IMG/VR virus record: IMGVR_UViG_3300020416_000617
Coordinates: 1-28,519 of that record
Direction: 5' to 3' (one strand)
From: a virus
Length of the DNA stretch: 28,519 nt
In this document: piece after piece, positions 534-27,353 of the stretch
Position numbering within the stretch: position 1 is the first letter of the stretch
How the letters are laid out: each line of letters starts with the position of its first letter
Program-made: the position numbers and the translations under genes
The notes under the pieces: model-generated
Told to the model about the DNA's origin: nothing
Database searches by the model: none
What the model saw: the letters and a program-made list of their open reading frames with translations, nothing else

Positions 534-1050
534 CAAGTTTTTCAAACTCAATATCGTGTATTCCCATATGGAATACTATTCTTTCCTTAGTTGGAGACTT
601 GACACCGTGTGGTTTTTTAGTATTTAAAACGACCATTGATTCGTATAGAATACTATCAGTTTCTTTACCATCGTCAAAGTACAATTCTCCTGTATTTTCT
701 GTTATAGGTATTACAAAAGAACATTTACTTTTTACATCTGAATGTAAAGGTAATTCACCACCCTCTTTTACTTTGAAGAAATTACATCTAAATTCTTTGG
801 GTCTAATATTAAATTCATTCCAAATACTTTTAATTAATCTTAATAACTTACGGTCAAAGTTATGTATCTCTTGTACATAAAACTTGTTCATATCTTCACC
901 ACCAGTTGCGTCTTTTACATATTCTGAATATAACTGGTTACTATCTTCCCACTTATCATTAAAGTAATCATTCCAGAAATCTTTATCTACTTTAAAGTCT
1001 GTTTCAATAAAAAAGTTTTTATGCCATTTTTTATAAATCATCTTGTCCAT
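529..1050 (-). CDS. Fe(II)/2-oxoglutarate oxygenase-like protein (copy 1)
   Basis: The protein is 173 aa from ATG 1048-1050. Its C-terminal half has the double-stranded beta-helix signature of non-haem Fe(II)/2-oxoglutarate oxygenases: H103-S-D105 in ELPLHSDVK, the distal iron ligand H148 in NTKKPHGV, and a likely 2-oxoglutarate-binding R157. Such enzymes hydroxylate proteins, nucleic acids or small molecules; the substrate here is unknown. A longer frame reaches a GTG at 1101 but would add a hydrophobic stretch encoded inside the upstream gene, so I reject it. ATG 1039-1041 is an equally possible start. It is the last gene of the island and overlaps the preceding oxygenase gene. Confidence 0.75.
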   Translation of the reverse strand: MDKMIYKKWHKNFFIETDFKVDKDFWNDYFNDKWEDSNQLYSEYVKDATGGEDMNKFYVQEIHNFDRKLLRLIKSIWNEFNIRPKEFRCNFFKVKEGGELPLHSDVKSKCSFVIPITENTGELYFDDGKETDSILYESMVVLNTKKPHGVKSPTKERIVFHMGIHDIEFEKLV

Positions 1051-1831: not shown

Positions 1832-2360
1832 ATGTTCCTTTATATTGCCAACAACTTGGATTTTCTTTACGACATACAGCAACTTTTTCATTACTGAAAT
1901 GCCATTTTGTATTTGTCTTTTTTTCTATTTCTAAAAACAAATTTTTCATATACAATCTGTTTCTACATCTACTTATAAATGCTTTTTTAAAACCTAATTC
2001 TTTTACTATCTCTAATTGTTGTTGTATTGTTTTTAATAAGTGATCTTTAACAATATCTCTACCTGGTCTTCTAACAATAGAGTGTTCCCAATATCTATTC
2101 AATATTCTTACTTCACCTTTTTCGTAAAATTCAGGTCTATGCCATACTGAACTAAATCCATATATATTGTCATCTTGTAATAAAACGGTAATACATTCAA
2201 AATCAAACCAATTGATAGATGTATAATCTTCTTTTTTAAAATGACCCTCGTCTAAATCATCAAAAGAAATTTCTTTAAGTTTTTTTAATAAATCTGGTCT
2301 ATCTTCAGGTTTAAATGTAATTACATCTAAATCATTATTTCGCAAAGTTGACAACATCAT
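1794..2360 (-). CDS. GNAT-like protein, acetyltransferase uncertain
   Basis: The protein has 188 residues from ATG 2358-2360. I do not recognise it firmly. The middle part has a strand-strand-helix order (ITVLLQDDNIYGFSSVW, then VRILNRYW, then a long helix with KDHLLKTIQQQLEIVKELGF, then AFISRCRN) that resembles the GNAT N-acyltransferase core, including a possible acyl-CoA loop around residues 97-104 (VRRPGRDI). No signal peptide or membrane segment is present. It sits between two AspH-like oxygenases and overlaps both, so it probably acts on the same product. A GTG at 2372 is a possible but weaker start. Confidence 0.5.
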   Translation of the reverse strand: MMLSTLRNNDLDVITFKPEDRPDLLKKLKEISFDDLDEGHFKKEDYTSINWFDFECITVLLQDDNIYGFSSVWHRPEFYEKGEVRILNRYWEHSIVRRPGRDIVKDHLLKTIQQQLEIVKELGFKKAFISRCRNRLYMKNLFLEIEKKTNTKWHFSNEKVAVCRKENPSCWQYKGTYEFEETTRPTTI

Positions 2361-2913
2361 TCCAAAACTCACTATTCTTTTTACCGTGTACTAATAAATG
2401 TATTCTTTCTTCATCTGAATTATTTTCAACATAGTGTTCATAATGAATATTTAACACAACACTCATACCAGGTTTATATTTTAACTCTTTATTATTTAAC
2501 ATAAACTTATTACCTTCAGGATATGTAAGACTTATGTTTAATGGTTCTAACCAATTTCTTTCAGGTATATCAATGTGTTTAGTAATATATCCTTTTGGTT
2601 TTATTACTAAAAATCTTATATCATCTATACGAGAATAAGGTAAAGACTTAACCCAATTAATAGTACCTCTACACTTTTGACCAATATCAGTTATAAAAGG
2701 TTTTTCACCTTTTTTTCTATACTCCCAATGACTATTAGTTTTATCTGAACCAAATCCGTATAAGGTAACTGCGTACCAATCTTTGTGTCCGTCTTCAGGT
2801 CTATGTTCTATTAGACTATTTTTTATCTCTTTATATTCTCTTAATATGGCATTGACAGGTACATTAAAACCCATTTCAACCCACTCTACGCTACTATTTC
2901 TATCAAACTTCAT
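2335..2913 (-). CDS. Aspartyl/asparaginyl hydroxylase-like 2OG oxygenase (copy 3)
   Basis: This 192-aa protein carries H113-I-D115 in YITKHIDIPE, a second iron ligand H160 in NIHYEHYVEN, and R170-I-H172 that fits the 2-oxoglutarate carboxylate. The spacing (HxD, about 45 residues, H, ten residues, R) follows the aspartyl/asparaginyl hydroxylase type. It differs greatly from copy 2 outside the motifs. The start overlaps the desaturase stop by one base (TAATG), a classic coupling arrangement. It is likely cytoplasmic and soluble. The substrate is unknown; a role near the desaturase product or in protein hydroxylation are both possible. Confidence 0.8.
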   Translation of the reverse strand: MKFDRNSSVEWVEMGFNVPVNAILREYKEIKNSLIEHRPEDGHKDWYAVTLYGFGSDKTNSHWEYRKKGEKPFITDIGQKCRGTINWVKSLPYSRIDDIRFLVIKPKGYITKHIDIPERNWLEPLNISLTYPEGNKFMLNNKELKYKPGMSVVLNIHYEHYVENNSDEERIHLLVHGKKNSEFWNDVVNFAK

Positions 2914-3542
2914 TATATAAAATATTTTTCAACTATGTATCCTGAAATATCTCCTTTACTTAATCTAATTTGTTTAGGGTTGTTGTGGTGTACATTATGA
3001 TGACCTTCTCCAGCAGATAAAAAATTTATAAATTTATTAGATACTGCCTTATTATCTTTATGTCCTAACGCATTAAAGATTCCATAACTTACGAAACCTA
3101 AAACTAAAGGTGAAAGAACAAATATAACAAAGACAGGAACACTTATTAATAAAGTTATAACTGCCGTTGCAATATGTAATTTTAACCAATGATTATGAAA
3201 AAACATTATTCTAGGATTTTTATATAAATCTCTAACATAAGGTCTATCTATTTTTTTAACATTCCAATTATTAAAAAGAACATTCCAAAAACCTTTGTGT
3301 GTAGGTGAGTGTGGATCTTTTTCTGTATCTGAATATCTGTGATGTATTCTATGAGCGCCAATCCAACTTAATGGTGACCTTGAAAATGCTAACATTGCTA
3401 GAAACAAAGAAAACACTTCGTATAGTTTAGAAGTTTTAAATTGATTATGTGCAAAATGTCTATGTAGACCTATTGATAAACCAAACATAGCAATAAACTG
3501 ATACCAAACAAAACCTATTAATAGCATAATAAAAATATCCAT
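2913..3542 (-). CDS. Compact membrane fatty-acid (acyl-CoA/lipid) desaturase
   Basis: This 209-aa membrane protein has all histidine boxes of the stearoyl-CoA/delta-9 desaturase family: H27-R-H29-F-A-H32, H64-R-I-H67-H68, an isolated H161 in NALGH, and H182-N-V-H185-H186 in GEGHHNVHH. These nine family histidines hold a diiron centre that introduces a double bond into acyl chains using O2. Hydrophobic segments lie at about 3-25, 43-62 and 122-160. The length is short compared with the usual 250-330 aa: the N-terminus begins almost at the first box and the C-terminus ends soon after the last. Lipid desaturases are known in cyanophages. It likely raises membrane fluidity of the infected cell, or edits a lipid-linked product. 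Confidence 0.9.
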   Translation of the reverse strand: MDIFIMLLIGFVWYQFIAMFGLSIGLHRHFAHNQFKTSKLYEVFSLFLAMLAFSRSPLSWIGAHRIHHRYSDTEKDPHSPTHKGFWNVLFNNWNVKKIDRPYVRDLYKNPRIMFFHNHWLKLHIATAVITLLISVPVFVIFVLSPLVLGFVSYGIFNALGHKDNKAVSNKFINFLSAGEGHHNVHHNNPKQIRLSKGDISGYIVEKYFI

Positions 3543-3548
3543 TTTATA

Positions 3549-3848
3549 TTACGCTTGTTCTACTGACCAACTAATAGAATTATCTTCGCAATGTTTAACT
3601 CTTTTATCAGTATTTACATTAAGAACATCATCATTCATATATTCTTGGTATGCGTCTTCATTATTAAAAGTTACTGACATAGTTTTTACTAATAAATCTT
3701 CTGAAATTGTTCCAGCAAAATCATAACTGGCAATTTTTCCTGCTGTCTTATATTCTTCGACTCTTGCTATTATATCTGCTTGATCTGTTGACCAAAAATC
3801 AACTTCAGTAGATGGTCTTTGTTGAATTAATTTGTATGTTACTGCCAT
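3549..3848 (-). CDS. Small conserved phage protein, unknown function, 99 aa
   Basis: This 99-aa acidic protein begins MAVTYKLIQQRPSTEVDFWS and has no membrane segment or cysteine-rich motif. Similar small proteins with an MAVTYKLI.QRP start occur in T4-like marine phages; no function is known to me. The start has AGAGGA about 6 bases upstream and a TATAAATA box 18 bp upstream, so this small gene has its own late promoter inside the metabolic island. It therefore begins a transcription unit that continues into the desaturase and the last oxygenases. Confidence 0.7.
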   Translation of the reverse strand: MAVTYKLIQQRPSTEVDFWSTDQADIIARVEEYKTAGKIASYDFAGTISEDLLVKTMSVTFNNEDAYQEYMNDDVLNVNTDKRVKHCEDNSISWSVEQA

Positions 3849-3864
3849 TTTTTATCCTCTACTT

Positions 3865-4485
3865 CTATTTATACATCATATTTTCAAATATTTTTTTGAT
3901 GGATTCATCACAACATTTGATATTCATTACTAGCATTGTGGTATCTTCTCTATAAGAAAATATAGCGTGTCTTTTATTTGTGTTTAAAAAGTATGTATAT
4001 CCTTCATTAAAATTCAATGGTTTATCTTCGTACATAAAATACATATTAGGTGGATTACATTTTCTCAATGGTACTAATAATCTCATAAATCTTTGTTCAC
4101 CAAATCTGTAATTATCTATATGAGGAGGAAAATATCCACCTCTTTTAAAATTTAAAAAATGTGTTCTACACAACCAAGGTTTAAATGGGTCTACTACTTT
4201 TCTTACTTCTTCACTTTTATAGTAAACATCTGTAAGTGTAGTAAATGAATCTTCATCATAATCAATACCTGTTTCTTTAGACAATTCGTACAAACTATCT
4301 AAATCTATTCCATTGACCTTGCCATCTATACTAGTTATGCTAAGACCATATCTAGGTATATTTTTTCTAGGATTATATTGACTAAATTTGAAATCTTTGA
4401 TTTCTTTAAATAATTTATTAACATCACACCTTAAATTTAAAGGTATAAAATCTCCATATGTTAAAAACTCACTATAATTTACCAT
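3865..4485 (-). CDS. Fe(II)/2-oxoglutarate oxygenase-like protein (copy 4)
   Basis: The protein has 206 residues from ATG 4483-4485. The oxygenase signature is H122-I-D124 in YFPPHIDNYR, followed by a strand-rich part and H173 in TNKRHAIFSY; the usual arginine may be R179. The N-terminal 110 residues are helical and charged. An ATG three codons upstream (4494) sits directly against AAGGA, too close for a ribosome site, while the same AAGGA is 9 bases from 4485, which decided the start. It overlaps the next oxygenase gene upstream by 7 bp, forming a tandem pair. The substrate is unknown. Confidence 0.75.
   Translation of the reverse strand: MVNYSEFLTYGDFIPLNLRCDVNKLFKEIKDFKFSQYNPRKNIPRYGLSITSIDGKVNGIDLDSLYELSKETGIDYDEDSFTTLTDVYYKSEEVRKVVDPFKPWLCRTHFLNFKRGGYFPPHIDNYRFGEQRFMRLLVPLRKCNPPNMYFMYEDKPLNFNEGYTYFLNTNKRHAIFSYREDTTMLVMNIKCCDESIKKIFENMMYK
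3866..3873 (-). promoter_or_regulatory. T4-type late promoter box TATAAATA inside the island
   Basis: The minus strand reads TATAAATA 18 bp before the start of the 99-aa gene. The box is embedded in the last codons of the upstream oxygenase gene (Met-Tyr-Lys-stop). The short distance to the AGAGGA ribosome site still leaves room for a leader of about ten bases. It would give the 3849-529 segment its own late expression. Confidence 0.65.
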
Positions 4486-5045
4486 TGTATCCATTCCTTT
4501 TTTAATTTAGGAGGTATCACATTCATTGTAAATACTTCGTTAGAATATTTATCCTCGCCTATCCAAGGTGCTCCTATACATACGGTTAACTTTTCTTCAT
4601 CTGGATCTAATCCGTGAGGATGTCCACCGTTTAAAATATAAGTATTATATGTGGGTGCATAAACTTTATTATTATCTTTATCTAAAAAATATAAACTATC
4701 TAATTTACCTGTTAATGCAAGTCTAAATTTTTGATGAAACTCTGGTATTTCTATTTGACGGCAATCTATATGTGTTGGTATATGATTACCTTTTTTAGTT
4801 TTTAGTATATGTATTTTACCTTTACTAGACATAATAGGTTTAATTTTTTCTTCATAAACTTTTATTAAATGTTTACAAGTCTTACCTTCTTTTGTCCATT
4901 CAAAATTTTTATCATATATACTTAATATTTCACAATTTCTGTACTCGTTAAAATACCAACCACTTGATACAGATTTTATTTCTGTAGCAATTAAGTTTAT
5001 ATCTTCTTTTGTAATATTTAAATCTATTGCTTTGTAGGTAAACAT
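4479..5045 (-). CDS. Fe(II)/2-oxoglutarate oxygenase-like protein (copy 5)
   Basis: The protein has 188 residues from ATG 5043-5045. The signature is H92-I-D94 in HIPTHIDCRQ and a distal ligand in GGHPHGL (H142 or H144), with K152 where a basic residue is expected for 2-oxoglutarate. It is the most divergent of the five oxygenase-like proteins. ATG 5073-5075 would add ten residues encoded within the end of the glycosyltransferase gene and has a purine-rich AAGAAGG directly against it; the start is therefore ambiguous. It lies between a glycosyltransferase and another oxygenase, which suggests hydroxylation coupled to sugar transfer, though this is inference. Confidence 0.7.
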   Translation of the reverse strand: MFTYKAIDLNITKEDINLIATEIKSVSSGWYFNEYRNCEILSIYDKNFEWTKEGKTCKHLIKVYEEKIKPIMSSKGKIHILKTKKGNHIPTHIDCRQIEIPEFHQKFRLALTGKLDSLYFLDKDNNKVYAPTYNTYILNGGHPHGLDPDEEKLTVCIGAPWIGEDKYSNEVFTMNVIPPKLKKEWIQW

Positions 5046-5605
5046 TTTAAATACGGAGTCCACCAACCACTCCATCCTTCTTCTAGTATATGGTGCATTT
5101 GACCTAAAGTTACAATACTATAATCTTTAGGTTTTTCATAGATATAATTTTTTATAGAAGGACAAATCTTATCATATGTTTCATATAATATTTGTTTATA
5201 ATAAAACTCATCACTACCCTTATTATATACTTTTAAATACTCTCTCTCTTGTGATTTAAACTTATCCCATATCCAAGACTTATCTCCAGTCCAAGATACA
5301 ATAGATGAATTAAGAGGTGTATGTGCTGGTTCTCTCCACCAACTATCATCTAATAATGTAAATTCTTTTCTAATTAAGTTAGGTAATTTGTCATAGATAA
5401 TAACATCTAAATCAAAGTATAGGTTTTCACCATCTCTAAACTTATCATACATTTGAAGTTTATTATACCAATTACCATAGATGTCATTTTCAATAACTTC
5501 AAAACTATCATAAGATAAACCTGAATAGTTATCTATCATATGTTTAAGATTGCTCACGTGCCAATCTGTAAACTTTGTGCCAAATCTACAACAAATTATT
5601 CTCAT
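5024..5605 (-). CDS. Small GT-A type glycosyltransferase (third of three)
   Basis: This 193-aa soluble protein begins with a Rossmann-like strand (MRIICCRFG) and carries D65-L-D67 in NLYFDLDVIIYDKLPNL, the DxD motif that binds the metal and nucleotide sugar in GT-A enzymes, with the typical 'colour of a border' hydrophobic residues before it. The region EPAHTPLNSSIVSW may form the acceptor side. It is short for the fold (usually 230-300 aa) but not visibly broken. It starts with ATGA, overlapping the nitroreductase stop by 4 bp. There is no membrane anchor, so it probably acts in the cytoplasm. Donor and acceptor are unknown. Confidence 0.75.
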   Translation of the reverse strand: MRIICCRFGTKFTDWHVSNLKHMIDNYSGLSYDSFEVIENDIYGNWYNKLQMYDKFRDGENLYFDLDVIIYDKLPNLIRKEFTLLDDSWWREPAHTPLNSSIVSWTGDKSWIWDKFKSQEREYLKVYNKGSDEFYYKQILYETYDKICPSIKNYIYEKPKDYSIVTLGQMHHILEEGWSGWWTPYLKCLPTKQ

Positions 5606-6456
5606 TTAATTTCTGTAATTTTAATATTACGATTTCTCATACTATTAATTTTTATTTCTGCTTTATCAGGTATCAAGTGTGGTTTTCCATTTGGATCTAA
5701 TATCCATTTACCAGCATCATTTTTAATATCTACGATTTTTGCTTTTCTCATTTTTTTACCTGTTCTAGGATGTGTTTCTTGGTTTGTTGTTGTAATCTTA
5801 CTGCCGTTGGCTGCACCTATCATTAATTCTGTATCATCTGATTCCCAACGAGGTCTATCTTTTTGTGGATAACCTATACCTATACCATAACATATTTCTT
5901 TCTCAAACGATTTTACTTCATCAAGTATACCTAATTTTTTTGGCCAATAATCATCACCATTCATATCATTATGACTCTTATTACATCCTGTTGCAAAACC
6001 TAATTTAGCAGCCGCTCGCATTGTAAGACCCATTGATATACCAATACTAACATAAGCATTATGCCAACGGTTTATATCTGAATTAGGTTTTGGTGTTCCA
6101 TCTGCATTACAATTTAATTGTGTATCTGGTTCTTTACCAACCCATAAAATATACAAATTAGCATTCATTTGTGAGTTACGATAGTTAGAAGGAGGATTAC
6201 GAGTATGTGTTGTACCCCAGGTGTATTTTGATAATTCTTCTAAAACTTTTCTATCTGCTGACCAATACAAATCATAATATCCTTCGTGTTGTTTAGAAGG
6301 AGTATTTTGGGCAGTCCATAAAAGATAATCTATAATTTCCTGATGAATAGTTTTACTATAATCCCAATTTCTTTGACATTTTTGCAATTCACGGATTATT
6401 TCTTTTTCTTCATCCCAACCATAATACATTCTTTTAATTCGTTCTTCTCTATTCAT
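5602..6456 (-). CDS. Nitroreductase-family flavoprotein (copy A)
   Basis: This 284-aa protein has nitroreductase-fold features: C27-Q-R-N-W-D32 near the FMN phosphate site, LLWTAQNTPSKQ (45-56), a central helix with YVSIGISMGLTMRAAAKLGF (135-154), and GIGIGYPQ (191-198). The family transfers electrons from NAD(P)H through FMN to nitro groups, quinones, enones or iodinated or azoline substrates. About 60 extra C-terminal residues (225-284) are basic and unlike the family core. AAGGA lies about 9 bases before the ATG, and the gene overlaps its neighbour by 8 bp. The substrate cannot be read from the sequence; a tailoring redox step in the island product is plausible. Confidence 0.75.
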   Translation of the reverse strand: MNREERIKRMYYGWDEEKEIIRELQKCQRNWDYSKTIHQEIIDYLLWTAQNTPSKQHEGYYDLYWSADRKVLEELSKYTWGTTHTRNPPSNYRNSQMNANLYILWVGKEPDTQLNCNADGTPKPNSDINRWHNAYVSIGISMGLTMRAAAKLGFATGCNKSHNDMNGDDYWPKKLGILDEVKSFEKEICYGIGIGYPQKDRPRWESDDTELMIGAANGSKITTTNQETHPRTGKKMRKAKIVDIKNDAGKWILDPNGKPHLIPDKAEIKINSMRNRNIKITEIK

Positions 6457-7189
6457 TCCAATAATCCTTTATAAATTTTGCATTTGATTCGTGTATAGTT
6501 TTACCAACACCTGTAAAATGTACTACTTTAATATATTTATGTACATCATCCATAATCATATATTCGGTATTAAACTTCTTACTATAAGTTTTATTTAAAT
6601 GTAAATTCTGTTTAAAGTCATCTGTATATTTACATAACCATTGTTGTGGTGTTGTTGTTAGTTTTATATTATGTTCTTGTACTTTCCAATTAACATAGTT
6701 TTGTTCTCCATAATATTTTGCGTGTACATCACCATTGTTATAATAATGCAATTGCCAATATTCAGGATTAAGAGCAAAGTCGTCCCATATACTTTTTAAA
6801 CTACCTGATTTAAACTTATAGAAACCACCATTAATCTTTAGTTTACTATCCCACCATTGACCATAAGTTATAATCTCATTATCTGATACAGGATGCCCAA
6901 TTAATTCATCTACATTGCCCGTAATCACTTGGTCAATATCCATAACTATAATTTCATCTCCAGGTTTTTGATAAGCAAATTGAGGACTAAAGTATTTTAA
7001 TTTATGCCAATGTTTCTTAATATCACTTTGATGATTATAAGGCAACACGACATCTGCTTCAACATCTGTATCACTTATACAAACAAACTCAAATGGTATA
7101 GTAGAGTTTCTTTTTAAACTTTTATAAAGTTTTGAAACATACTCTGGCGTATAGAAACCATCAAAATATACGGTACATATTTTAAGCAT
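6449..7189 (-). CDS. GT-A type glycosyltransferase (second of three)
   Basis: The protein is 246 aa from ATG 7187-7189. It opens with a Rossmann-like strand (MLKICTVYFDGFYTPEYVSK) and has D84-I-D86 in IIVMDIDQVITGNVDELI, the DxD site of a GT8-like or related GT-A enzyme. Further features are GQWWDS and INGGFYKFKSG, expected on the donor-sugar side, and VVHFTGVGKTIHES near the C-terminus, similar to the final His-containing metal/UDP loop of GT8 enzymes. The start was chosen because GGAGAAG lies 6-7 bases upstream; a longer frame up to 7273 would overlap the preceding gene by 92 bp and lacks such a site. It is soluble and probably adds a hexose or similar sugar. Confidence 0.82.
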   Translation of the reverse strand: MLKICTVYFDGFYTPEYVSKLYKSLKRNSTIPFEFVCISDTDVEADVVLPYNHQSDIKKHWHKLKYFSPQFAYQKPGDEIIVMDIDQVITGNVDELIGHPVSDNEIITYGQWWDSKLKINGGFYKFKSGSLKSIWDDFALNPEYWQLHYYNNGDVHAKYYGEQNYVNWKVQEHNIKLTTTPQQWLCKYTDDFKQNLHLNKTYSKKFNTEYMIMDDVHKYIKVVHFTGVGKTIHESNAKFIKDYWNE

Positions 7190-8045
7190 AATATCTTCTC
7201 CAACAACAATCAAAGTCTTTATTAATTGCGTGTACAAATTTAACATCTTTAGGTATGAAACCTTGTCTATCAAAGAAATAATGCCATTGATTATCTAACC
7301 ATTGTACAGGTACATTGTGTTCATTTAATTTAACACTAAACAAAGTTTCGTTATCATAACCAAAAAAATCTACAATCTTTTTAGGAAATACATCATAGTT
7401 TGTTGTTAAATTTTTCATTGTTTTAATGTCATTATCAAAGTTGTCAAAGTATTTTAGTTTATCTATGTGTTCTTTATTTGCACCAATTATACCTGTATTG
7501 ATTACTTTGTTTATAGGACTTAAATTCTTTTCCATTAACATTGCCTGAGCATTGTAATACTTTGCTGTAGGACTTCTAATTGTTTGTGTCTGTTTAGTAA
7601 TAGTTTCCATAGTATTAACTTTGTAAGTATTATCAAATACTGCAATACCCTTATCTAAATTCCAAGTATCAAAAAAATTATCTTTAGTTAAACATACAAC
7701 ATCAAAATCTAAATAAAGTATTTCATCATAAGTTTTTGATAACTCATAAAGTAAATTTAGTTTATAAAAGTTGACTACATTATAAGTTGTAATAAATGGA
7801 TAATGTTTTTTAATTTCTTTTTCAAATTTTTGATACCGAAGATCATACTCAAACATCATAAAAGGCACACCTATTGATTCAGCATACCACTTTTTGTTTG
7901 CTAATAACTTAAAGTAATTATCTTTAAATTGATTTTTAGTAATAATATTTCTAGGAACTTCGTCTTTTTTTAAAACATCTCTATCAAATATATCTAATTC
8001 TTCTTCAGGTATATCAATGTAAAAACTATATATTACTCTTGTCAT
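7182..8045 (-). CDS. GT-A type glycosyltransferase (first of three)
   Basis: The protein is 287 aa from ATG 8043-8045; a TTG at 8052-8054 is a possible but weaker start. D113-F-D115 in EILYLDFDVVCLTKDNFF is the DxD motif, preceded by VVNFYKLNLLYEL, the helix that packs against the nucleotide in GT8-like enzymes. KVINTGIIGANKEH resembles the N.G.....K stretch on the donor side, and VKFVHAINKDFDCCWR closes the fold with a likely metal-binding histidine. There is no membrane helix. It overlaps the next GT gene by 8 bp. The two enzymes probably add successive sugars to one acceptor, which is inference from context. Confidence 0.82.
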   Translation of the reverse strand: MTRVIYSFYIDIPEEELDIFDRDVLKKDEVPRNIITKNQFKDNYFKLLANKKWYAESIGVPFMMFEYDLRYQKFEKEIKKHYPFITTYNVVNFYKLNLLYELSKTYDEILYLDFDVVCLTKDNFFDTWNLDKGIAVFDNTYKVNTMETITKQTQTIRSPTAKYYNAQAMLMEKNLSPINKVINTGIIGANKEHIDKLKYFDNFDNDIKTMKNLTTNYDVFPKKIVDFFGYDNETLFSVKLNEHNVPVQWLDNQWHYFFDRQGFIPKDVKFVHAINKDFDCCWRRYYA

Positions 8046-8625
8046 ATTTACCAATCAATAGGAATCTTGTTCCTCTATCATCTTTTATTTCATCTTCTAT
8101 TAAAACTTTTGCATTATTAGGTAGTTGTTTTTTAAAATCATTTAAATCATACACACAATTAATATGACCTTCTATACTTAACATATTATTAGATTGATAA
8201 GCAAAATAAGCATTTGAATCTAACTCTAATTCTTTCATAGGTGGCATATGTTCGCAAGAAGTATTAATAATTAAATCAGCATTTTGTATTCTACCTTTTC
8301 TATCATTATGAAATACATCACTTGTTATAAAATCTACATTTTTATAATGATTAAACAATCTATTTTTAGCAATACCAATTACTTTTTCATCTTTGTCAAT
8401 TAATGTAATTCTTTTTACTTCTTTAAATGCTGGTATTAATATACTGCCGTACCAACCACCTAAAATAACTATTTCTGAATTAGTCTTTAATATCAATTGA
8501 TCTCTAATGTGTTTTATTAATCTTTCTTTAGATTTAAACTGATTAGGACTAAATGAATCTAAAAGATCACTATTGTGCCTAGACTCTGCCATTATATTTT
8601 TAAATAATTGTAAATCTATATCCAT
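8026..8625 (-). CDS. Class I SAM-dependent methyltransferase
   Basis: This 199-aa protein shows the Rossmann-type methyltransferase core: motif I VILGGWYGSILIP (G56, G57, G60), the acidic residue ending strand 2 in ITLIDKDE (D77), FITSDVF (D103) for the adenine side, and motif IV DLIINTSCEHMPPM (118-130), with a cysteine and histidine near the active site. The typical length and the absence of a target-recognition domain argue against a DNA methylase and for a small-molecule, sugar or protein O/N-methyltransferase. It overlaps the nitroreductase gene by 10 bp and the first GT-A gene by 20 bp. Confidence 0.75.
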   Translation of the reverse strand: MDIDLQLFKNIMAESRHNSDLLDSFSPNQFKSKERLIKHIRDQLILKTNSEIVILGGWYGSILIPAFKEVKRITLIDKDEKVIGIAKNRLFNHYKNVDFITSDVFHNDRKGRIQNADLIINTSCEHMPPMKELELDSNAYFAYQSNNMLSIEGHINCVYDLNDFKKQLPNNAKVLIEDEIKDDRGTRFLLIGKYDKSNI

Positions 8626-9332
8626 TTTATTATTTCTTTCATCTCAGGTTTTACATCCCATTTATGTTTACCCCAAGCTTTCATATCTTGCTCTCTATAT
8701 CTTTTTGCATACCCACAACTTATCATTGTTATTGGTCTTGTAGTTACCATATCTAAACCTACTTTGTGCCATTCTTCAGGTCGTCTTCTAAAACAAGAAT
8801 TGTAAGATATATCTAAACCTTCTTCTAGTAAATAATATCCTAAATTACCTGCAAATAATCCTACTTCAACTGATACTGAATCTATTATATGTTCAAACAA
8901 ATGTTCATAACCTTGATCGTATTGATGTCCTTGTTTTATTTTTTCTCTATACCATTTGTTCGGTGTAGATACTCTACTATGTATTGTAAACAGATATGGA
9001 TTAAATGCTATGTGTTCGTAAAATGGATTAGGAAAGTTACCATCTTCAGGATGATCTGATTGTGTTGTAGAGTTAGGTAATCTCTTATCTAAAACTGCTT
9101 CTTTCTCTACACTCTTATGTGATTTAACAACTAAACTATGTATTGCTTCTTTGTGTATCTCTTTATCAGGTCCCCATACTAATACTTGATAAGGTATTGC
9201 ATTATTTTTTCCTGGTGTTGTTTTCCACGCCTTATATAATGCTCTTTCAATACACTCTTTAGGAGGTATCTTATCCATATCATATTTCTTAACGTGTTTT
9301 CTTTTATTTTCTAATGTGTCAAAATAATTCAT
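8616..9332 (-). CDS. Nitroreductase-family-like protein (copy B)
   Basis: This 238-aa protein has weaker nitroreductase features: NKRKHVKKYD (9-18) where the family has its R.S.R FMN-phosphate region, a helix and loop with AWKTTPGKNNAIPYQVLVWG (about 35-54), and SVEVGLFAGNLGYYLLEEGL (154-173), which corresponds to the conserved helix at the dimer and flavin interface. It differs strongly from copy A. It starts with an ATGA overlap after the carbamoyltransferase gene, so the two are probably made together. The function is likely NAD(P)H/FMN-dependent reduction or oxidation of a tailored intermediate; the substrate is unknown. Confidence 0.65.
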   Translation of the reverse strand: MNYFDTLENKRKHVKKYDMDKIPPKECIERALYKAWKTTPGKNNAIPYQVLVWGPDKEIHKEAIHSLVVKSHKSVEKEAVLDKRLPNSTTQSDHPEDGNFPNPFYEHIAFNPYLFTIHSRVSTPNKWYREKIKQGHQYDQGYEHLFEHIIDSVSVEVGLFAGNLGYYLLEEGLDISYNSCFRRRPEEWHKVGLDMVTTRPITMISCGYAKRYREQDMKAWGKHKWDVKPEMKEIIKWI

Positions 9333-10819
9333 TTTCTAATTATCCAATCATTAATAATTAATATATCTAATGCTGTTCTTTCAAATGTTCTTATTGCGTC
9401 ACCAGGTGTTTCTACAATAGGTTCGTGTCTATTAAAACTTGTATTTAACAACATAGGTATGCCTGTTATAGTATCAAACTCTCTTATTAATTCATATAGT
9501 TTATTATTCTGTTCTTTATTAATTGTTTGTATTCTAGCAGTATTATCTATATGAGTTACACCAGGCACTTTGTCAGTTTTAACTTTACATATTCTACTCA
9601 TATAAGGACTAGGACTATTTGTATCAAAGTATTCTTTATATCTATCTTCTAATACAACAGGTGCAAATGGTCTAAAGTCTTCTCTCATTTTTATAGTATG
9701 ATTAATAACATCTTTAATATCTTTTCTTCTTGGATCTGCTAATATACTTCTATTACCTAATGCACGGTTACCACTTTCTGATTTACCTTGAAACCAACCT
9801 ACTATCTTACCATCTGCTATTGCTTGTGCAATTGGTTTGTAAGATGTTAATTTTTCATTACCTATAAATTCATACTCTTTACCAGAAAATGTTTCTGATT
9901 TATGTAAATTATTATTCATAACACAATCAGCGTGTTGATAAACACCTATTGCTTGACCTTCATCTCCTACAGCAGGTGGAACAAAAACATTTTTATAATG
10001 TTTAGTAAATTCTTCGTTCATATAACCATTGTAGGCAACACCACCTGCAATACATAAATTATCACAAGTTTTTAATGGATAGATATGTTCTTTTATTTTA
10101 TCTATTGTAAATTTTTGTAAAGTAAATGCTAAGTCTTCTTTTCCATAATCTAAATTAATTAGATTGTGAACTTTATAATTCTTTTCTTTTATTTCTCCTG
10201 CTATCATAGTTTCAAATACATCATAATAATATTGATTAAATTTACCATAACCTACTAAACCCATAAGTTTACTTGCACCTAATGAACCAAATCCTGTTAC
10301 CTTTGATAGTTGATTCCATAACCACCCTAAAGGTAATTCTTTTGATAAGTCTATTATATTTTCATCTTTGTCAACAAATATACATCTAAATTTATATCCT
10401 ATACCGTCTATGGCAAGTATATCTGATTTATCAAAACCTGAATTAACAAAAGCATATGTGGCGTGTGATTGATGATGGTCTATAAAATACATATCATCTA
10501 CCATACAATAGTCCCATAATTTTTTAGGTTTATAATCTAATACTTCTTTTGGTAATATATCCTTACACATTCTAATACCACCAGCAGTCATAGAAAATGC
10601 TAATGTTTCACCATCTCTTTTTTTAAAATATTCTTTTACATATTCATTATTTAATCTATAATCACCTGTGTTTAACTTATCTGATTGATGAGCATATGCG
10701 TCAGCGTGATAAGGAAGATTATGTTTAAATCTAGTAAATCTTTCTCTTTGATTATGCCACACACCATCATATGTATTATGGTCGTGTAAATTTAAAGCAA
10801 TAGCAAATATCTTACGCAT
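9329..10819 (-). CDS. NodU/CmcH-family O-carbamoyltransferase
   Basis: This 496-aa protein transfers a carbamoyl group from carbamoyl phosphate, through a carbamoyl-adenylate, to a hydroxyl on a sugar or natural product. The Kae1-like N-terminal domain has RERFTRFKH (25-33), H115-H-Q-S-H119 (iron-binding pair), DGIG (138-141), AGGVAYNG (258-265) and D286 in GDEGQAIG. The YrdC-like C-terminal domain has ESGNRALGNRSILADPR (348-364), REDFRPFAP (379-387), TARIQT, and LLNTSFN with EPIVETP (457-472). All key motifs are intact; the length is slightly short of the usual 550-600. GAGGT lies 7 bases before the ATG. This family is known in T4-like marine phages. Its target is probably a sugar hydroxyl made or attached by neighbouring enzymes. 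Confidence 0.93.
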   Translation of the reverse strand: MRKIFAIALNLHDHNTYDGVWHNQRERFTRFKHNLPYHADAYAHQSDKLNTGDYRLNNEYVKEYFKKRDGETLAFSMTAGGIRMCKDILPKEVLDYKPKKLWDYCMVDDMYFIDHHQSHATYAFVNSGFDKSDILAIDGIGYKFRCIFVDKDENIIDLSKELPLGWLWNQLSKVTGFGSLGASKLMGLVGYGKFNQYYYDVFETMIAGEIKEKNYKVHNLINLDYGKEDLAFTLQKFTIDKIKEHIYPLKTCDNLCIAGGVAYNGYMNEEFTKHYKNVFVPPAVGDEGQAIGVYQHADCVMNNNLHKSETFSGKEYEFIGNEKLTSYKPIAQAIADGKIVGWFQGKSESGNRALGNRSILADPRRKDIKDVINHTIKMREDFRPFAPVVLEDRYKEYFDTNSPSPYMSRICKVKTDKVPGVTHIDNTARIQTINKEQNNKLYELIREFDTITGIPMLLNTSFNRHEPIVETPGDAIRTFERTALDILIINDWIIRK

Positions 10820-11636
10820 TTAACAACCTCGCATATTTTCTCATTGGAAAATGACCTTTAGGTTGTACCCATTCAGTACAAGTCTTACAATAATTTTCAT
10901 ATTTAAATAATTTAAAATTCATCATCTTATCTATATTTTCTTTTGTCAACTCAAACATTCTGGACAATTCAGTATTGTTAGCAAACTTTTTACTACAATG
11001 TATAATCATTTTCTTTTCAAAATCAATAACAGGTACCATAGGAAAAGCGGCACACATTTTTCTATCTATTTCAGTTGCCTGTAAAACATCTGTAAACTCT
11101 TTTGATCTACCATTAAATTCTTTCCACATAGTATTCTTATGTTCTAATTTTTTTACAACATCTGGATACTTATGATTAAATGCAAAATAATTAGGTGTTT
11201 TTACTACAACATTATAATTGTTAAAATTATTTTCTGGTATGTAATCAAAGTTACCTAGTTTTTTTACTTCATTCTCGTACCAATCTAATATATTATGTTC
11301 AACATATAATATATCCTTATCTTCTAGTATGTGTGGGTATCTTTTTCTTATAAACGAATTAGATAAAACTGAACAAACAAAATTAGGATACTTTTTAATT
11401 TCATTGATAACTTCATCTAAATTTTTTATAAGACCTGGTTCTCCACCTAGTAAATTAATTCTTACTTTGTAATCTTTTAAATAGTCTAAACATTTTCTTA
11501 AAAAATCCATATCTACGGTCAAGTTTCTCATCTCTAAAGTATAACTTGTACAATAGTGGCAGTCTTTATTACAAGACATTGATAGAAAAAAATCTATTGC
11601 TAAATAATTATCTTGTATCTCTTGTAAGGTTTTCAT
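10812..11636 (-). CDS. Radical SAM enzyme with C-terminal cysteines
   Basis: This 274-aa protein has the radical SAM cluster motif C22-N-K-D-C26-H-Y-C29 (CxxxCxxC) and G64-G-E-P67 for SAM binding, so it makes a 5'-deoxyadenosyl radical. C195, C214 and the pair C250-K-T-C253 near the C-terminus could bind a second iron-sulphur cluster, as in SPASM/twitch-type enzymes that modify peptides or sugars; the spacing does not exactly match a full seven-cysteine SPASM domain. It lies between the aminotransferase and carbamoyltransferase genes, overlapping them by 29 and 8 bp. No precursor peptide gene is obvious next to it, which favours a sugar or small-molecule substrate. Confidence 0.85.
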   Translation of the reverse strand: MKTLQEIQDNYLAIDFFLSMSCNKDCHYCTSYTLEMRNLTVDMDFLRKCLDYLKDYKVRINLLGGEPGLIKNLDEVINEIKKYPNFVCSVLSNSFIRKRYPHILEDKDILYVEHNILDWYENEVKKLGNFDYIPENNFNNYNVVVKTPNYFAFNHKYPDVVKKLEHKNTMWKEFNGRSKEFTDVLQATEIDRKMCAAFPMVPVIDFEKKMIIHCSKKFANNTELSRMFELTKENIDKMMNFKLFKYENYCKTCTEWVQPKGHFPMRKYARLLNA

Positions 11637-12876
11637 AAAATTTATTAAATGCTATTTTCAATTTTCTTTTGTCTTTAAATTCAACTTCTTCAATATATTC
11701 TGGTGTTTGATAAGTCTTCTCTATAATATAATCGTAAACATCTTCCGTAGTTTCATTGATTAAACTTTTGTCAAATATATCATCACCTATCAATTGTTTC
11801 ATACTATCTAAAAACTTATTTTCTTCTTGGTCTAAAAAAATAAGAATAGTGTTAATTATATTATCTACTTCTTGTGGACTCATATATGCGTGTATAGGTA
11901 ATGTCAATATACTATCACATACTATCTTACTAATAAATGTACTATCTTTTTTATGTTTTATATTTTCGTACATCTTGTTTTCTGATAAAGGTTTGTCATA
12001 GTGTACTTTTGCACCTAGTTTTTCTTTTAGTCTATCTCTTACTTCTTTGTTTTGTAATCTAATAACATATTTGTGATAATTGTGGTCAGCATTTGTCTGT
12101 TGTATAGTTACATATTCTTGTAATTGTTCATCATATCGTTTTGCTATTGCTTGTCTTTTTGATTGCCACTCTTTCATTCTTTGTAATCTATAATCTATAA
12201 ACTTAGCATTGAGTAATAACATCTTTGAGTTATAACCTAATACTTCATTATTGCCGTGTCTTCTTAACTTCTTAAATAATTCTGCTTTATCTTTGTCATC
12301 TGTTAAGATTGCCCCACCACCTGCTATACCAGCGACTACTTTATTTGCATTGAAACTTAATGTACTGACATCTCCTATTGATCCTGCTTTAATTCCGTTC
12401 AAACTGGCGCCTAGCGCTTGACAAGCATCCTCAATAAATGCAATATTTTTTTCTTTACAAAAATCTATTATCTCTTTTGTATCAGACATATTGCCAAATA
12501 GATGAGGATAAACAATTGCCTTTGTTTTATCCGAGTACATTCTTTTAATACTATCTAATGACATATGATAGTTTAATATATTAATATCACAGAATACAGG
12601 TGTTGCACCTACCATTGATATACAAGACGCAGTTGATATCCAAGAGAAGTTAGTTGTTAATACTTCATCATCTGGTTTAAGATTTAAACTAATTAATGCA
12701 AAATGTAAAGCGTCTGTACCATTACTACACGCAACAGCATATTTTCTTCCTGTTATTCTTGTAAGAGATTTTTCTAAAAACTCTACATTCTGTTCCTGAT
12801 CTTGTTGCATAACATCATCAAAGAGTTTTAGATATTCTTGTTTGTTAAATAGATATTCTTTTTTATAACCGTTCAT
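11608..12876 (-). CDS. DegT/DnrJ/EryC1 sugar aminotransferase with C-terminal extension
   Basis: This 422-aa PLP enzyme probably converts a nucleotide keto-sugar to an amino-sugar with glutamate as donor. Visible are the cofactor phosphate loop SNGTDALHFA (51-60), D150 in IEDACQALGA that holds the pyridine nitrogen, the Schiff-base lysine K179 in SFNANKVVAGIAGGGA, and LPIHAYMSPQEVDNI (326-340), which normally ends the family fold. About 70 further acidic, helical residues (352-422) are extra compared with the usual 360-390 aa. GGAG lies about 8 bases before the ATG, and the gene overlaps the SGNH gene by 14 bp. The keto-sugar could come from the epimerase-like gene upstream or from the host. 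Confidence 0.92.
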   Translation of the reverse strand: MNGYKKEYLFNKQEYLKLFDDVMQQDQEQNVEFLEKSLTRITGRKYAVACSNGTDALHFALISLNLKPDDEVLTTNFSWISTASCISMVGATPVFCDINILNYHMSLDSIKRMYSDKTKAIVYPHLFGNMSDTKEIIDFCKEKNIAFIEDACQALGASLNGIKAGSIGDVSTLSFNANKVVAGIAGGGAILTDDKDKAELFKKLRRHGNNEVLGYNSKMLLLNAKFIDYRLQRMKEWQSKRQAIAKRYDEQLQEYVTIQQTNADHNYHKYVIRLQNKEVRDRLKEKLGAKVHYDKPLSENKMYENIKHKKDSTFISKIVCDSILTLPIHAYMSPQEVDNIINTILIFLDQEENKFLDSMKQLIGDDIFDKSLINETTEDVYDYIIEKTYQTPEYIEEVEFKDKRKLKIAFNKFYENLTRDTR

Positions 12877-13618: not shown

Positions 13619-14824
13619 CTAATAATTCCAATGTGTCTTCCAATCTTTATCAACTAAAATAGGATCATTTGACATATATGTGTCTTCAATAATTGCTTCT
13701 TTTCTAACTTTGATTTTTACTTCCATACCTGTCTTATCCATACCTAATAATTTCATTGCTATGACTCTATGTTTTCCATCTACAATATAATATCTATCTT
13801 CATTTAAAGATTTTATACATTCTATTGGACCACATAAATTAATATCAAAATTGTTTTTTATTTCTTCTACTTTATCCCAATCTGTATCTTTTTGTATAGA
13901 CTTATCAATCCATAAATTATCTATTATATTTTCTTTTATTCTTTTACGCAAAATAGGTCTTATCTCATTGTTTATAAGATTAATTAAAACTTGTATATTA
14001 TCTTTATATATTTCTTTTGTAGGTACAGGTCTGTTCCAATATACCATACCACCATCTTTTATATTCTTATCTCTTACATAATCTACATTTTTACCTAACC
14101 ATCTGAACTCTACAAAGAGTCTAGGTGCAGGATCAAAATTAGGTTTTGTATATACATATGTTTCAAACTTACCTAGTATGTTTTCAATAGGTGCAAATAA
14201 ATTATTTAATTTAGGATTAATCCATTTTGCATTATAAGTTACAATACCGTGATCTGGATATTTGTGTATATGCTTTTCAATTTCTTTATAATATATTTCA
14301 TTTGTGCCTAAAAACAAATACTTGTGTTGTATATCATTTTTTATAGGTTTATATACATCAAAATTAATTATCTTTTCATAGTGTATACCAACACCGTTCG
14401 GATATACATCATAGTCGCATAAGTCATAAACTTTTTTAGGTTTAAAGTATTCTAGTGCTAAAGGATATTCTTTAGGATGATTTTCTGAATACAATGCTAT
14501 TACTTTATTACTGAATAGTAAATGTAAAGTTAATAATTGATCTTTACTATATTTGTGTTTATCTAGGTAAGGTAAAGTTATCATACTTCTACCTAACACT
14601 AAAGTTATTTCAGTTGAACTTGGTGTATAATCATTAAAGACTATATTCTCACAAGTCTTGTATTGATCTGTTATTGATTTTATGTAATCTTCTTTAGTAT
14701 GATTAGGATTGGGTATTATAACACATTGACTTTTAATATCAACAGAATTTAAATAACAACAATGCTCATAACTATAACGCAGTAAACCATCGCCAGGTTT
14801 ACCTGTACATACTATATTAATCAT
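13619..14824 (-). CDS. GT-B-like glycosyltransferase fused to a ParB/sulfiredoxin-like domain
   Basis: This 401-aa protein appears to have two domains. Residues 1 to about 285 look like a reduced GT-B glycosyltransferase: an N-terminal MINIVCTGKPGDG strand-loop, and a C-terminal YVYTKPNFDPAPRLFVEFRW (donor-side-like E/F helix) followed by GGMVYW. Residues about 290-375 have the ParB/sulfiredoxin-like motif in YYIVDGKHRVIAMKLLG (D349-G-K-H-R353) preceded by helices, as in ParB-type nucleotide-binding proteins and some small-molecule kinases of this fold. It directly abuts its neighbours (1-2 bp). Either domain call alone is moderate; the fusion is real in frame, with no stop or frameshift. Confidence 0.68.
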   Translation of the reverse strand: MINIVCTGKPGDGLLRYSYEHCCYLNSVDIKSQCVIIPNPNHTKEDYIKSITDQYKTCENIVFNDYTPSSTEITLVLGRSMITLPYLDKHKYSKDQLLTLHLLFSNKVIALYSENHPKEYPLALEYFKPKKVYDLCDYDVYPNGVGIHYEKIINFDVYKPIKNDIQHKYLFLGTNEIYYKEIEKHIHKYPDHGIVTYNAKWINPKLNNLFAPIENILGKFETYVYTKPNFDPAPRLFVEFRWLGKNVDYVRDKNIKDGGMVYWNRPVPTKEIYKDNIQVLINLINNEIRPILRKRIKENIIDNLWIDKSIQKDTDWDKVEEIKNNFDINLCGPIECIKSLNEDRYYIVDGKHRVIAMKLLGMDKTGMEVKIKVRKEAIIEDTYMSNDPILVDKDWKTHWNY

Positions 14825-24196: not shown

Positions 24197-25693
24197 TTAA
24201 AATTCTATGACCAGTTTAATGTTTTCCGTTTGATCTGGTGCCCTTTGTATCGGTGTTCTATTTTCAATATAAAGTACATCGCCAGTATCGTGGTCTATTT
24301 CAGGAACTGAATATCCTGAAGTAAATGAAACATTGTTAACCGTTCCTGTTGATGAAGTGTCAGGTGTTCCTGTAGGAGAACTACCACCTTGACCTGTAAT
24401 AACATTAGCACCTGAAAACGCAGTTAGATTTCCGTTTGCGTCAACACCAGCGTCATTATGCCTTGTTTGTATGTAATATAAAATATTATTTGTTGAGTCC
24501 CATTCTACAACTTTACCAACAGCACCTGTACTCGCCTGATTAATTTCTTCATCTGTTGTAAAAGTACCTGGTGTTGGAGAAGAAGCAATTTTAATTGCCT
24601 TTGTTAATCTAGCAGTATTACTAGTTACAGCAGCAGCTGATTTTGTTGGATCTCTTAATAATGCAATTTTTCTAAAGTCATTAACAGCAGAAAAGTCACC
24701 AGAGTTTGATGATTCTGTTCCTTCTAAACTTGTATTCATCATTACAAAGAAAGCACCTAATTCTGATTGTGCATTTGCACCGTGTCCACCTTTTGGCGGA
24801 ATAATTACATCTAATTCTGCACCTGCAAGACCAGTTGCACCAGCGGCAACTATTTGTGCATTTGAAATTGTACCAAAAGTATATCCTGTACCTGGAGTAG
24901 TTACGGTTACAGCAGATACTAATCCACCAGCAACGGTTACACTTGCGATACCACCAGAACCATCTCCTCTAATAGGAATATTTGTAAATGTTCCGTTAGC
25001 ACCACCTGAACCAGCAGTTTTAATTTTTACTATATCTATTGCACCGTCAACAGCAGCAGAAATAACATTTGATTGATCTGCCCCTGGACTAGAGTTTGGC
25101 GAAACTGCCATAAAATCTGTTGATAAAAAACTTGCTTGTTGAGCAGCAGATAAAGTGTACATAAATTTCCACTTATAAGAATCTGTTGTAGTAATTACTG
25201 AAGTTGATACACCAGTTGGTTCATCTGTTGAAGCAGCACCACCGTTGTTATCTAAACATTTGTAAACATTTCGTGCTGAAGATAATACATAAAAAGTTGC
25301 GTCATATAAAGTAGTTGCACCACTATTTGATGTTTGTTTTACACTTGTTGATCCTGTTGTGTATTCTCCATAGTCGTGTCTGTAAATATCGTAAACCGTA
25401 CCTGCGATCCAGTTTCTTCTTGGAACTACAAAAGAAACATCTGAAGATTGTACTCTTTTAGCAGCAACTAAATCATCATAAGTATAAAATTCTCTACCCA
25501 TACTATCACTAGGTGTATTTGGTAAAGAATCTGTACCTTCGTAATCTGTTCTTCCATCTGATCTTGTTAAAGTACCAAAGGGTTGTGGTCTTCCAATACC
25601 TAGATAATAGACATTATTTGCTGTTTCAGAAAATGACTCTGAAAATTGTTCAGCGTTGTTTAATCTAAATTTATTTGTTATAATTGCTGGCAT
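24197..25693 (-). CDS. T4-like marine phage baseplate/virion structural protein, 498 aa
   Basis: The 498-aa protein begins MPAIITNKFRLNNAEQFSES with the following VYYLGIGRPQPF, a start conserved in T4-like cyanophage and pelagiphage structural proteins. SYKWKFMYTLSAAQQASFLS (about 170-190) is a second conserved block. The second half is rich in Gly/Ser/Thr and beta-like (AGGLVSAVTVTTPGTGYTFG). No enzyme motif is present. The stop lies 12 bp before the DUF4815 start, and a TATAAATA late box stands 20 bp before its own ATG. It is likely a baseplate wedge or tail-associated protein; the exact T4 counterpart is unclear. Confidence 0.82.
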   Translation of the reverse strand: MPAIITNKFRLNNAEQFSESFSETANNVYYLGIGRPQPFGTLTRSDGRTDYEGTDSLPNTPSDSMGREFYTYDDLVAAKRVQSSDVSFVVPRRNWIAGTVYDIYRHDYGEYTTGSTSVKQTSNSGATTLYDATFYVLSSARNVYKCLDNNGGAASTDEPTGVSTSVITTTDSYKWKFMYTLSAAQQASFLSTDFMAVSPNSSPGADQSNVISAAVDGAIDIVKIKTAGSGGANGTFTNIPIRGDGSGGIASVTVAGGLVSAVTVTTPGTGYTFGTISNAQIVAAGATGLAGAELDVIIPPKGGHGANAQSELGAFFVMMNTSLEGTESSNSGDFSAVNDFRKIALLRDPTKSAAAVTSNTARLTKAIKIASSPTPGTFTTDEEINQASTGAVGKVVEWDSTNNILYYIQTRHNDAGVDANGNLTAFSGANVITGQGGSSPTGTPDTSSTGTVNNVSFTSGYSVPEIDHDTGDVLYIENRTPIQRAPDQTENIKLVIEF

Positions 25694-25730: not shown

Positions 25731-27353
25731 TTAAGTTATGTTAATGTTTCCTACCATTGCTGAGTGTGATGTACATTGATAATAAAGTGTTGCTGGAGCG
25801 TCCATAGGTACGTGAAATACAATAACACCACTAGGTCCTGAAGCATTATTATTAGTAACACCAGTATTATACGCAGTACCACCTGTACCTGTTGTTGATT
25901 GTATTCTGAAAGGGTGACCACCACTTGTATTTCTAAAGTAATAAGTTTGACCTTTCTTTATGTGTAAATCAGGATTATCAGCACTTTGACCTGCAGGGAA
26001 TCCTGCACCTTGAAACTCATAACCATTTGCGTCTGAAGCAGTTACTATAAATTGAGATACTGGCGTTGTTGCTTGTACCCAACCAGAACCATCATAGACT
26101 AAAGACATACCTGCTGTAGGCGAACTATTAGTTACATCTGTTAAATCGTCTAATGCAACTGAACCACCTGTAGGAGCAACGGCATTAAATCTACCTTGTG
26201 CTGAATTAAAAGTTAAAACATCACCGTCTGAAACACCTGTTATATTAACATCTGTATGTGCTGAAACGGAAGAGTTTTCATCTAATACTCTAACCCAACC
26301 ACTACCTGAAGAATAATAAGGTCTGTTACCTACACTATCGTAAGCATACATTCCAACATATGTTGCAGCCGCTGGTAAAGAACCAAAACCTGAAAAATCA
26401 AATCTTATTTTAGAACCTGCACCAGTTAAATCAGTTGTACCTGTTCCTGATATTGAAGATGATCCTGTTAAATTTAAATCTGCTGTTGTACTTAATGTGC
26501 CACCTAAAGAAACTGCCGTTCCACCAATAGTAATTGATGAATTAGCAAGTGAAGTATTAGGCACAGAAGAAACACTTAACTCTATTCTATTATTTGTAAT
26601 AGCAGTTGAAACTCCTGAACCACCAATTATTTCAAAACTATCACCTAAATTAACATCAAAGTTTGTAGATGTATCATCACCTATTGTAATTTTTTTATTA
26701 ACAAGTTTGTCGTTTGAAATAGAACCTGCTAATTGAGCATTTGTAATTGTTCCTGATAAAGAACTTGTAGGATAATTTGTTGCGTCTGTTAAATCAAAAG
26801 CAGGAGTAGCGTCAACACCACCTAAATTAAGTTGTACACCACCATATGAAACCGTTGAATTTAATAAAGAAGTATTATCTATACTAGTTAAAGTATTTGT
26901 AGAACCTGAAATTGTTTTATTTGTTAATGTGTCAGTAGATGTTTCTGTTAGAACTACGCCGTCTATATCAATTTTAACTTTGTCTGCTGTTACGGTAGTT
27001 GTAATTCCTGTACCACCTTCAAAAGTAATAGTATCGCCTAAATCTACTGCTGAAGTAGCGGCGCCATCACCTGTAAGTGTAATTTGTGAATTAGTTAATT
27101 TTGCATTTGGTATAGTTGCTAATGCACTACTAGGGATATTTGTAAATGTATTTGTAGCACCATCAAGTGATTTATTTGTTAAAATTTGTGTTGCACCTGT
27201 GGTTACATATGTACCTGAAAGTAAAGTAGTACCATCACCTAATGCGTTATAGATTTCATCAAAGTTTGCGTTAACTTTAGCTGCACCTGCTCTTAAATTA
27301 TCACCTGTTCCATCATTAGCAGCGGTTCCTCTATTAATTGATTGTTTTGTCAT
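25731..27353 (-). CDS. Tail fibre with beta repeats and a C-terminal cupredoxin-like domain
   Basis: The 540-aa protein begins SINRGTAANDGTGDNLRAGA, a common N-terminus of marine phage fibre proteins. Residues about 60-290 hold repeats around L.N..IT.G (86, 163, 217, 269), typical of beta-helical fibre shafts. 332-430 carries YDSVGNRPYYSSGSGWVRV and LDDLTDVTNSSPTAGMSLVY, seen in many fibres. The last 105 residues (435-540) look like a cupredoxin: a strand, FRNTSGGHPFRI with H480, and LYYQCTSHSAMVGNINI with C527, H530 and M533, the four ligands of a type-1 copper site with C-x2-H-x2-M spacing as in amicyanin. Fibre function is confident; copper binding is inferred. Confidence 0.85.
   Translation of the reverse strand: MTKQSINRGTAANDGTGDNLRAGAAKVNANFDEIYNALGDGTTLLSGTYVTTGATQILTNKSLDGATNTFTNIPSSALATIPNAKLTNSQITLTGDGAATSAVDLGDTITFEGGTGITTTVTADKVKIDIDGVVLTETSTDTLTNKTISGSTNTLTSIDNTSLLNSTVSYGGVQLNLGGVDATPAFDLTDATNYPTSSLSGTITNAQLAGSISNDKLVNKKITIGDDTSTNFDVNLGDSFEIIGGSGVSTAITNNRIELSVSSVPNTSLANSSITIGGTAVSLGGTLSTTADLNLTGSSSISGTGTTDLTGAGSKIRFDFSGFGSLPAAATYVGMYAYDSVGNRPYYSSGSGWVRVLDENSSVSAHTDVNITGVSDGDVLTFNSAQGRFNAVAPTGGSVALDDLTDVTNSSPTAGMSLVYDGSGWVQATTPVSQFIVTASDANGYEFQGAGFPAGQSADNPDLHIKKGQTYYFRNTSGGHPFRIQSTTGTGGTAYNTGVTNNNASGPSGVIVFHVPMDAPATLYYQCTSHSAMVGNINIT
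25734..26051 (-). other. Cupredoxin-like domain at fibre C-terminus
   Basis: This segment encodes residues 435-540 of the 540-aa fibre. Candidate copper ligands are H480 (GGHPF), C527, H530 and M533 (CTSHSAM). Strand pattern, the Asn/Thr-Ser-Gly-Gly-His stretch after a KKG turn, and the Y-Y-x-C-x2-H-x2-M-x-G ending all follow small blue copper proteins. Phages may keep the fold for stability or receptor contact even without copper. Confidence 0.6.
25983..27100 (-). repeat. Fibre-shaft protein repeats (diverged)
   Basis: The fibre gene encodes a diverged repeat seen best at residues 86-131 and 217-261: LTNSQITL and LVNKKITI are each followed by VDLGDT/VNLGDS and by GGTGI/GGSGV. Two shorter versions start at about 163 (LLNSTVSYGG) and 269 (LANSSITIGG). 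Only the protein sequence is clearly repeated; the DNA has diverged. The stated limits are approximate and cover the repeat-bearing half onwards. Confidence 0.5.

Follow-up and report, generated by a model that had tools for sequence, protein, structure and literature searches.

Known cupredoxins serve as electron carriers or as domains of enzymes. The apo-forms of these proteins have a very high affinity for copper, a metal that is scarce in the cytoplasm, and type-1 sites can also hold zinc or stay empty. In phage T4, gp9 trimers sit on six wedges, and the T4 gp9 and gp10 proteins are not known to contain a cupredoxin domain. Besides the cupredoxins themselves, what is already known includes phage-borne petE, the plastocyanin gene that is carried by several cyanophage genomes (PMC3037559), and iron in phage fibres, where the metal is bound by HxH motifs of T4 gp37 and where the Ferrojan horse hypothesis was proposed (PMC11705849). 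The virion of S-SM1 is reported to contain 41 proteins (PMC3037559). A search of the open-access literature found no cupredoxin in a phage fibre, baseplate, or virion, and an earlier mention elsewhere is possible.

The window analysed here is a stretch of 28,519 nucleotides, which contains the whole of a 28.5-kb IMG/VR virus record. It encodes a 540-residue baseplate protein, the last ~108 residues of which very probably form a true cupredoxin fold with a metal-competent site. The explanation that we favour, and hold to be probable as a whole, is that the domain is a cupredoxin with a complete type-1 copper site and acts as a copper-loaded docking or adhesion module on the baseplate. The genes and regions concerned are:

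24197–25693, minus strand: gp8-like baseplate wedge protein (Pfam Phage-Gp8, E 1.9e-14)
25731–27353, minus strand: gp9/gp10-like baseplate protein (baseplate wedge or tail fibre connector) of 540 residues, recognized from its open reading frame, its Pfam and PHROG matches, and its position adjoining the gp8 homologue
26889–27347, minus strand: N-terminal baseplate-attachment region of the T4 gp9/gp10 type, residues 3–155 (Pfam PF07880)
25734–26057, minus strand: C-terminal cupredoxin domain, residues ~433–540 (AF2 model, matches to PDB structures, profile matches)

The N-terminus of the 540-residue protein matches the Pfam family T4_gp9_10_N (PF07880) with an E-value of 5.8e-8 and 33.4 bits, compared to a gathering score of 25. 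In PHROG, the protein falls into family 677 (baseplate wedge tail fibre connector), with an E-value of 7.8e-68. The baseplate-binding region and the position of the gene beside that of gp8 are shared with T4 gp9 and gp10. These matches and the gp8-like neighbour indicate that the carrier of the cupredoxin domain is a connector or pin protein of the baseplate and not a free tail fibre. The earlier note had called the carrier a tail fibre and had put the site at the fibre tip; both assignments give way to the baseplate connector, although fibre proteins of other phages also hold the domain. In isolate cyanophages, the gp9 that bears the domain likewise lies within a baseplate and fibre cluster.

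The gp8-like neighbour is 67.7% identical to its counterpart in Pelagibacter phage Mosig, and another protein of the window matches Mosig alone. Judged from these sequence matches, the source genome is that of a T4-type, pelagiphage-like phage, and the window is a fragment of it. The second protein has 401 residues (13619–14824, minus strand), is without a Pfam match, and has Mosig as its sole phage match; the Mosig region that it matches is annotated with molybdenum cofactor and nitroreductase genes.

An alignment of 32 family sequences (A1) was the basis of the AF2 model of residues 415–540 and of a profile search against the PDB. The model has a mean pLDDT of 90.7 and a pTM of 0.82, and its best matches among solved structures are type-1 copper or other cupredoxin domains. 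The closest solved structure is the type-1 domain of Hyphomicrobium nitrite reductase (NirK, PDB: 2dv6), with a Z-score of 10.9 and an rmsd of 2.0 Å over 94 residues. Rusticyanin (PDB: 2cal) has a Z-score of 10.2, small laccases reach Z-scores of 9–10, and Foldseek matches the model to rusticyanin with an E-value of 2.4e-5. The NirK domain and rusticyanin (PDB: 2cal, 1rcy) are thus the nearest in structure to the phage domain, whereas they are ~22% identical to it in sequence and represent an enzyme domain or a soluble carrier, outside virions. The predicted fold is a Greek-key cupredoxin, as the earlier note had proposed, and the comparison of structures that it had suggested did not lead to a fold of another kind. 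The model of the full-length protein is poor (pLDDT 54, pTM 0.27), as expected for a single chain of a probable trimer. The C-terminal domain is its best-predicted part, with block means mostly between 75 and 87 and one loop at 52–62.

The kinship to cupredoxins is visible with the family profile only. A single-sequence query of the PDB gave nothing useful, and the window protein alone scores 15.1 bits against Pfam Copper-bind, under the cut-off of 21.2. The A1 profile matches amicyanin (E 1.1e-5), plastocyanin (1.9e-5), and NirK (3.0e-5), and a family profile also picks out rusticyanin from sequence. Of the 32 A1 members taken singly, 13 show a weak match to Pfam Copper-bind and 11 to the NCBIfam amicyanin family. 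Assignment to the amicyanin equivalog (TIGR02657) was rejected at 17.8 bits against a cut-off of 110.2; the protein is related to amicyanin and is not an amicyanin. Amicyanin (PDB: 1aac, 1sf3), the best profile match, shares with the phage domain the cupredoxin fold, the C-x2-H-x2-M loop, and an upstream histidine, but is a free periplasmic electron carrier. Plastocyanin, including that encoded by cyanophage petE, has the fold and the ligand set in common with the phage domain; however, petE stands alone as a metabolic gene of photosynthesis, whereas the phage domain is part of a structural protein of the virion.

The ligand set His, Cys, His, and Met occurs in the right order, with three of the four residues in the loop preceding the last strand:

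25914–25916, minus strand: His480, predicted upstream copper ligand in the motif GGHPF (position, conservation, co-loss, plastocyanin histidine in the A4 profile)
25773–25775, minus strand: Cys527, predicted thiolate ligand (position, profile register, conservation)
25764–25766, minus strand: His530, predicted ligand (profile register, position, conservation)
25755–25757, minus strand: Met533, predicted axial ligand (profile register, position, conservation; a natural Met to Leu variant occurs in L040)

In the alignment of the A1 profile to amicyanin and plastocyanin, the cysteine, histidine, and methionine of the ligand loop are in register. The upstream histidine is one residue off that of canonical amicyanin, where it follows a proline (PH), whereas in the phage domain it precedes one (HP). 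A sister subfamily (A4) is identified by profile comparison as kin of the A1 family with 100% probability, and in its profile the phage upstream histidine falls on the histidine of plastocyanin. The numbering of the four residues in the earlier note is correct, and the register with amicyanin bears out the loop type that it had named. The segment that it had flagged (25734–26051) does hold the ligand-bearing C-terminus, and corresponds to residues 435–540, that is, 106 codons instead of the 105 residues given.

The C-x2-H-x2-M motif arose in 7.5e-5 of composition shuffles, and in combination with a histidine 30–60 residues upstream in 5e-6. A chance origin of the motif is irrelevant given the homology, since the four residues are invariant in 15 full-length relatives. 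The 540-residue protein contains five histidines and a single cysteine, Cys527. A role of this residue in an intra-chain disulfide was rejected because it is the only cysteine in the chain, and an inter-chain disulfide in a trimer does not fit the place of Cys527 in the ligand set.

The combination of all four ligands, HCHM, is present in 175 of 182 unique complete domains, and in 106 of 112 domains after clustering at 85% identity; these counts are biased upward, because most loci come from scans with patterns containing the ligand motif. The six clustered exceptions read HCHL, SCHM, YSAM, SSDM, DSTI, and DSSA. The first is a replacement of Met by Leu and the second an alignment shift in a protein that reads GHQ, whereas in the remaining four, three or four ligands are gone at once. 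These represent approximately three independent losses, since two of the loss events are in tandem domains of one protein. Losses in different ligand columns correlate at 0.50–1.00, whereas no pair of other highly conserved columns exceeds 0.33. To reduce the ligand bias, separate counts were made for the domains retrieved with the N-terminus and for those retrieved with a ligand-less domain as the query. The site is kept in all complete domains of the N-terminus set, in two of them after correction of a one-residue shift, and in 28 of the 29 domains found with the ligand-less query. All 19 complete domains in the isolate genomes retrieved have the four ligands. An alignment of homologues had been proposed at the outset; in it the ligands are conserved and lost as a set, and are not freely replaced. 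As far as aligned sequences can tell, this co-loss is the pattern of a metal site that is kept as a unit.

Some natural cupredoxin-like domains (L072, L074, and L179–L181; L049 and L240) are without three or four of the ligands, lost as a group, and bear on the possibility that the domain is a dead relic, a beta-sandwich adhesin only, in which the ligands are kept for folding. The ligand-less domains, such as those of L072 and L049, indicate that the fold survives without the ligands. Nevertheless, a relic is very unlikely, because the ligands rank among the most conserved columns of A1 at 24–30% identity and disappear jointly, not one by one.

The conservation of the ligands also bears on which metal they hold. 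Type-1 ligand sets are established to bind zinc in vitro, and the metal could be structural only, its natural identity being zinc or a mixture rather than copper. A precedent in phage fibres is the iron bound by the HxH motifs of T4 gp37 (PMC11705849). The fibre sites resemble the present one in that a metal is bound by a phage fibre protein, but they hold iron between chains through pairs of histidines, whereas the cupredoxin site predicted here is formed by Cys/His/His/Met of a single chain. We regard the structural-metal alternative as unlikely: the full Cys/His/His/Met set is kept, including the axial methionine, whereas at a zinc site the methionine should be freer to vary. We consider it likely that copper is bound in the virion.

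At E ≤ 1e-5, the domain was identified in 324 records of isolate phages, which almost exclusively represent Synechococcus and Prochlorococcus phages, and at E ≤ 1 in 351; the matches are usually in a gene annotated gp9. Marine viral contigs contributed at least 592 confirmed stretches with the domain. Eleven of the 12 whole phage genomes searched contain one to four matches, and the domain is absent from Pelagibacter phage HTVC008M, which is among these 12. Nearly all marine T4-like phages examined share the same predicted copper site, and it is therefore probable that the particles of such phages carry copper. Since a few natural relatives are without the ligands and HTVC008M is without the domain, the site is not indispensable.

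In other proteins, the domain is found near the N-terminus, internally, or in tandem in fibre-like proteins, for example in the putative proximal tail fibre of P-SSM2. Proteins with an N-terminus 71% identical to that of the window protein can end in a different, cysteine-containing C-terminal domain (L103–L105), which indicates that the cupredoxin domain is an exchangeable terminal part. Such exchangeability would fit a docking or adhesion role. A large protein encoded after gp9 in cyanophages (L082, L083, L090–L093) has degenerate His and C-x2-H-x2-M sites, and these probably mark additional copies of the domain that have diverged.

That the domain occurs on the baseplate connector, and not on fibres alone, argues against a copper Trojan horse, in which a host outer-membrane receptor would mistake the copper-bearing virion for a copper ligand. 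The published analogue, for iron at HxH sites, is the Ferrojan horse hypothesis (PMC11705849), and we consider the copper version highly improbable for the domain described here.

The range of hosts is relevant to the idea of an active redox centre, in which a change in the state of the copper, at the host surface or in connection with light-driven host redox, would trigger or license irreversible adsorption. It is established that type-1 sites are tuned for electron transfer, the closest matches of the phage domain are electron-transfer domains, and cyanobacteria are the hosts of most isolates with the domain. Light-dependent adsorption of cyanophages is a topic of the literature. However, the domain is also present in phages of SAR11 and Methylophilales, hosts without photosystem photosynthesis; neither a redox partner nor a trigger was seen, and ligand conservation cannot separate redox from structural use. 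A working redox centre thus appears doubtful, and it is similarly unlikely that each particle displays ~18 or more redox-active, copper-loaded type-1 centres on its exterior that sense or engage the host surface. The copper may have a redox role, which the evidence does not require.

Cellular relatives were found in bacterial genomes using a consensus query drawn from the phage family. These relatives (L303–L331), from Bacteroidota and Proteobacteria, are 54–63% identical to the family consensus, and the four ligands, HPF, and C-x2-H-x2-M are invariant in eight representatives. Whereas the phage domain belongs to a virion protein, the relatives are C-terminal parts of predicted lipoproteins or CHRD-domain proteins, or small proteins. 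In Flavobacteriaceae, the domain is the C-terminus of a Lipoprotein_15-repeat protein (L304) or of CHRD-domain proteins (L303, L310), and in several Proteobacteria (L329–L331) it constitutes a small protein, the start of which resembles, by eye, a signal sequence. The cellular relatives are predicted to be secreted. No Pfam or NCBIfam cupredoxin family reaches its cut-off over the domain in L304, L303, L310, or L329–L331, and a cellular-only profile gave weak matches in the PDB with immunoglobulin folds mixed in. No experimental function of the cellular relatives was found, and a plasmid search with a cellular member gave no match. In a tree of limited resolution, most phage domains form one large group apart from most cellular ones, and the cellular domains enclose a second group from phages. 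The domain belongs to a lineage that is widespread in the virion proteins of marine T4-like phages and akin to cupredoxin-like domains of secreted bacterial proteins. Two loci filed as bacterial metagenome-assembled genomes, L302 (Gammaproteobacteria MED685) and L318 (Rhodobacteraceae Water_Bin34), carry phage-like fibre genes and look like phage contigs.

If the virion contains six gp9-like trimers, as in T4, the baseplate rim would display ~18 predicted sites. The sites would take up copper, probably after lysis because free copper is scarce in the cytoplasm. The copper-loaded domain would then be a rigid, surface-exposed, metal-stabilised module for docking or adhesion between the baseplate, the fibres, and the host surface. 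The docking or adhesion role is the more tentative part of the explanation, on which our own opinion is nearly evenly divided. With a conserved type-1 site in their baseplate and fibre proteins, the virions of these very abundant marine phages would be carriers of copper, and the site would provide a concrete candidate for a metal site in host attachment in cyanophages and pelagiphages. The idea developed for iron and viruses would also be extended to copper, which in seawater is both scarce and toxic. If the redox reading were true, electron-transfer-type copper chemistry would take part in virus adsorption.

Beside the baseplate genes, the minus strand of the window contains a cluster of likely modification enzymes (1031–12876). 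The cluster encodes two aspartyl/asparaginyl beta-hydroxylase-like proteins, a weakly matched nitroreductase, a carbamoyltransferase, and a DegT-type aminotransferase, which suggests sugar or surface-modification functions in the phage.
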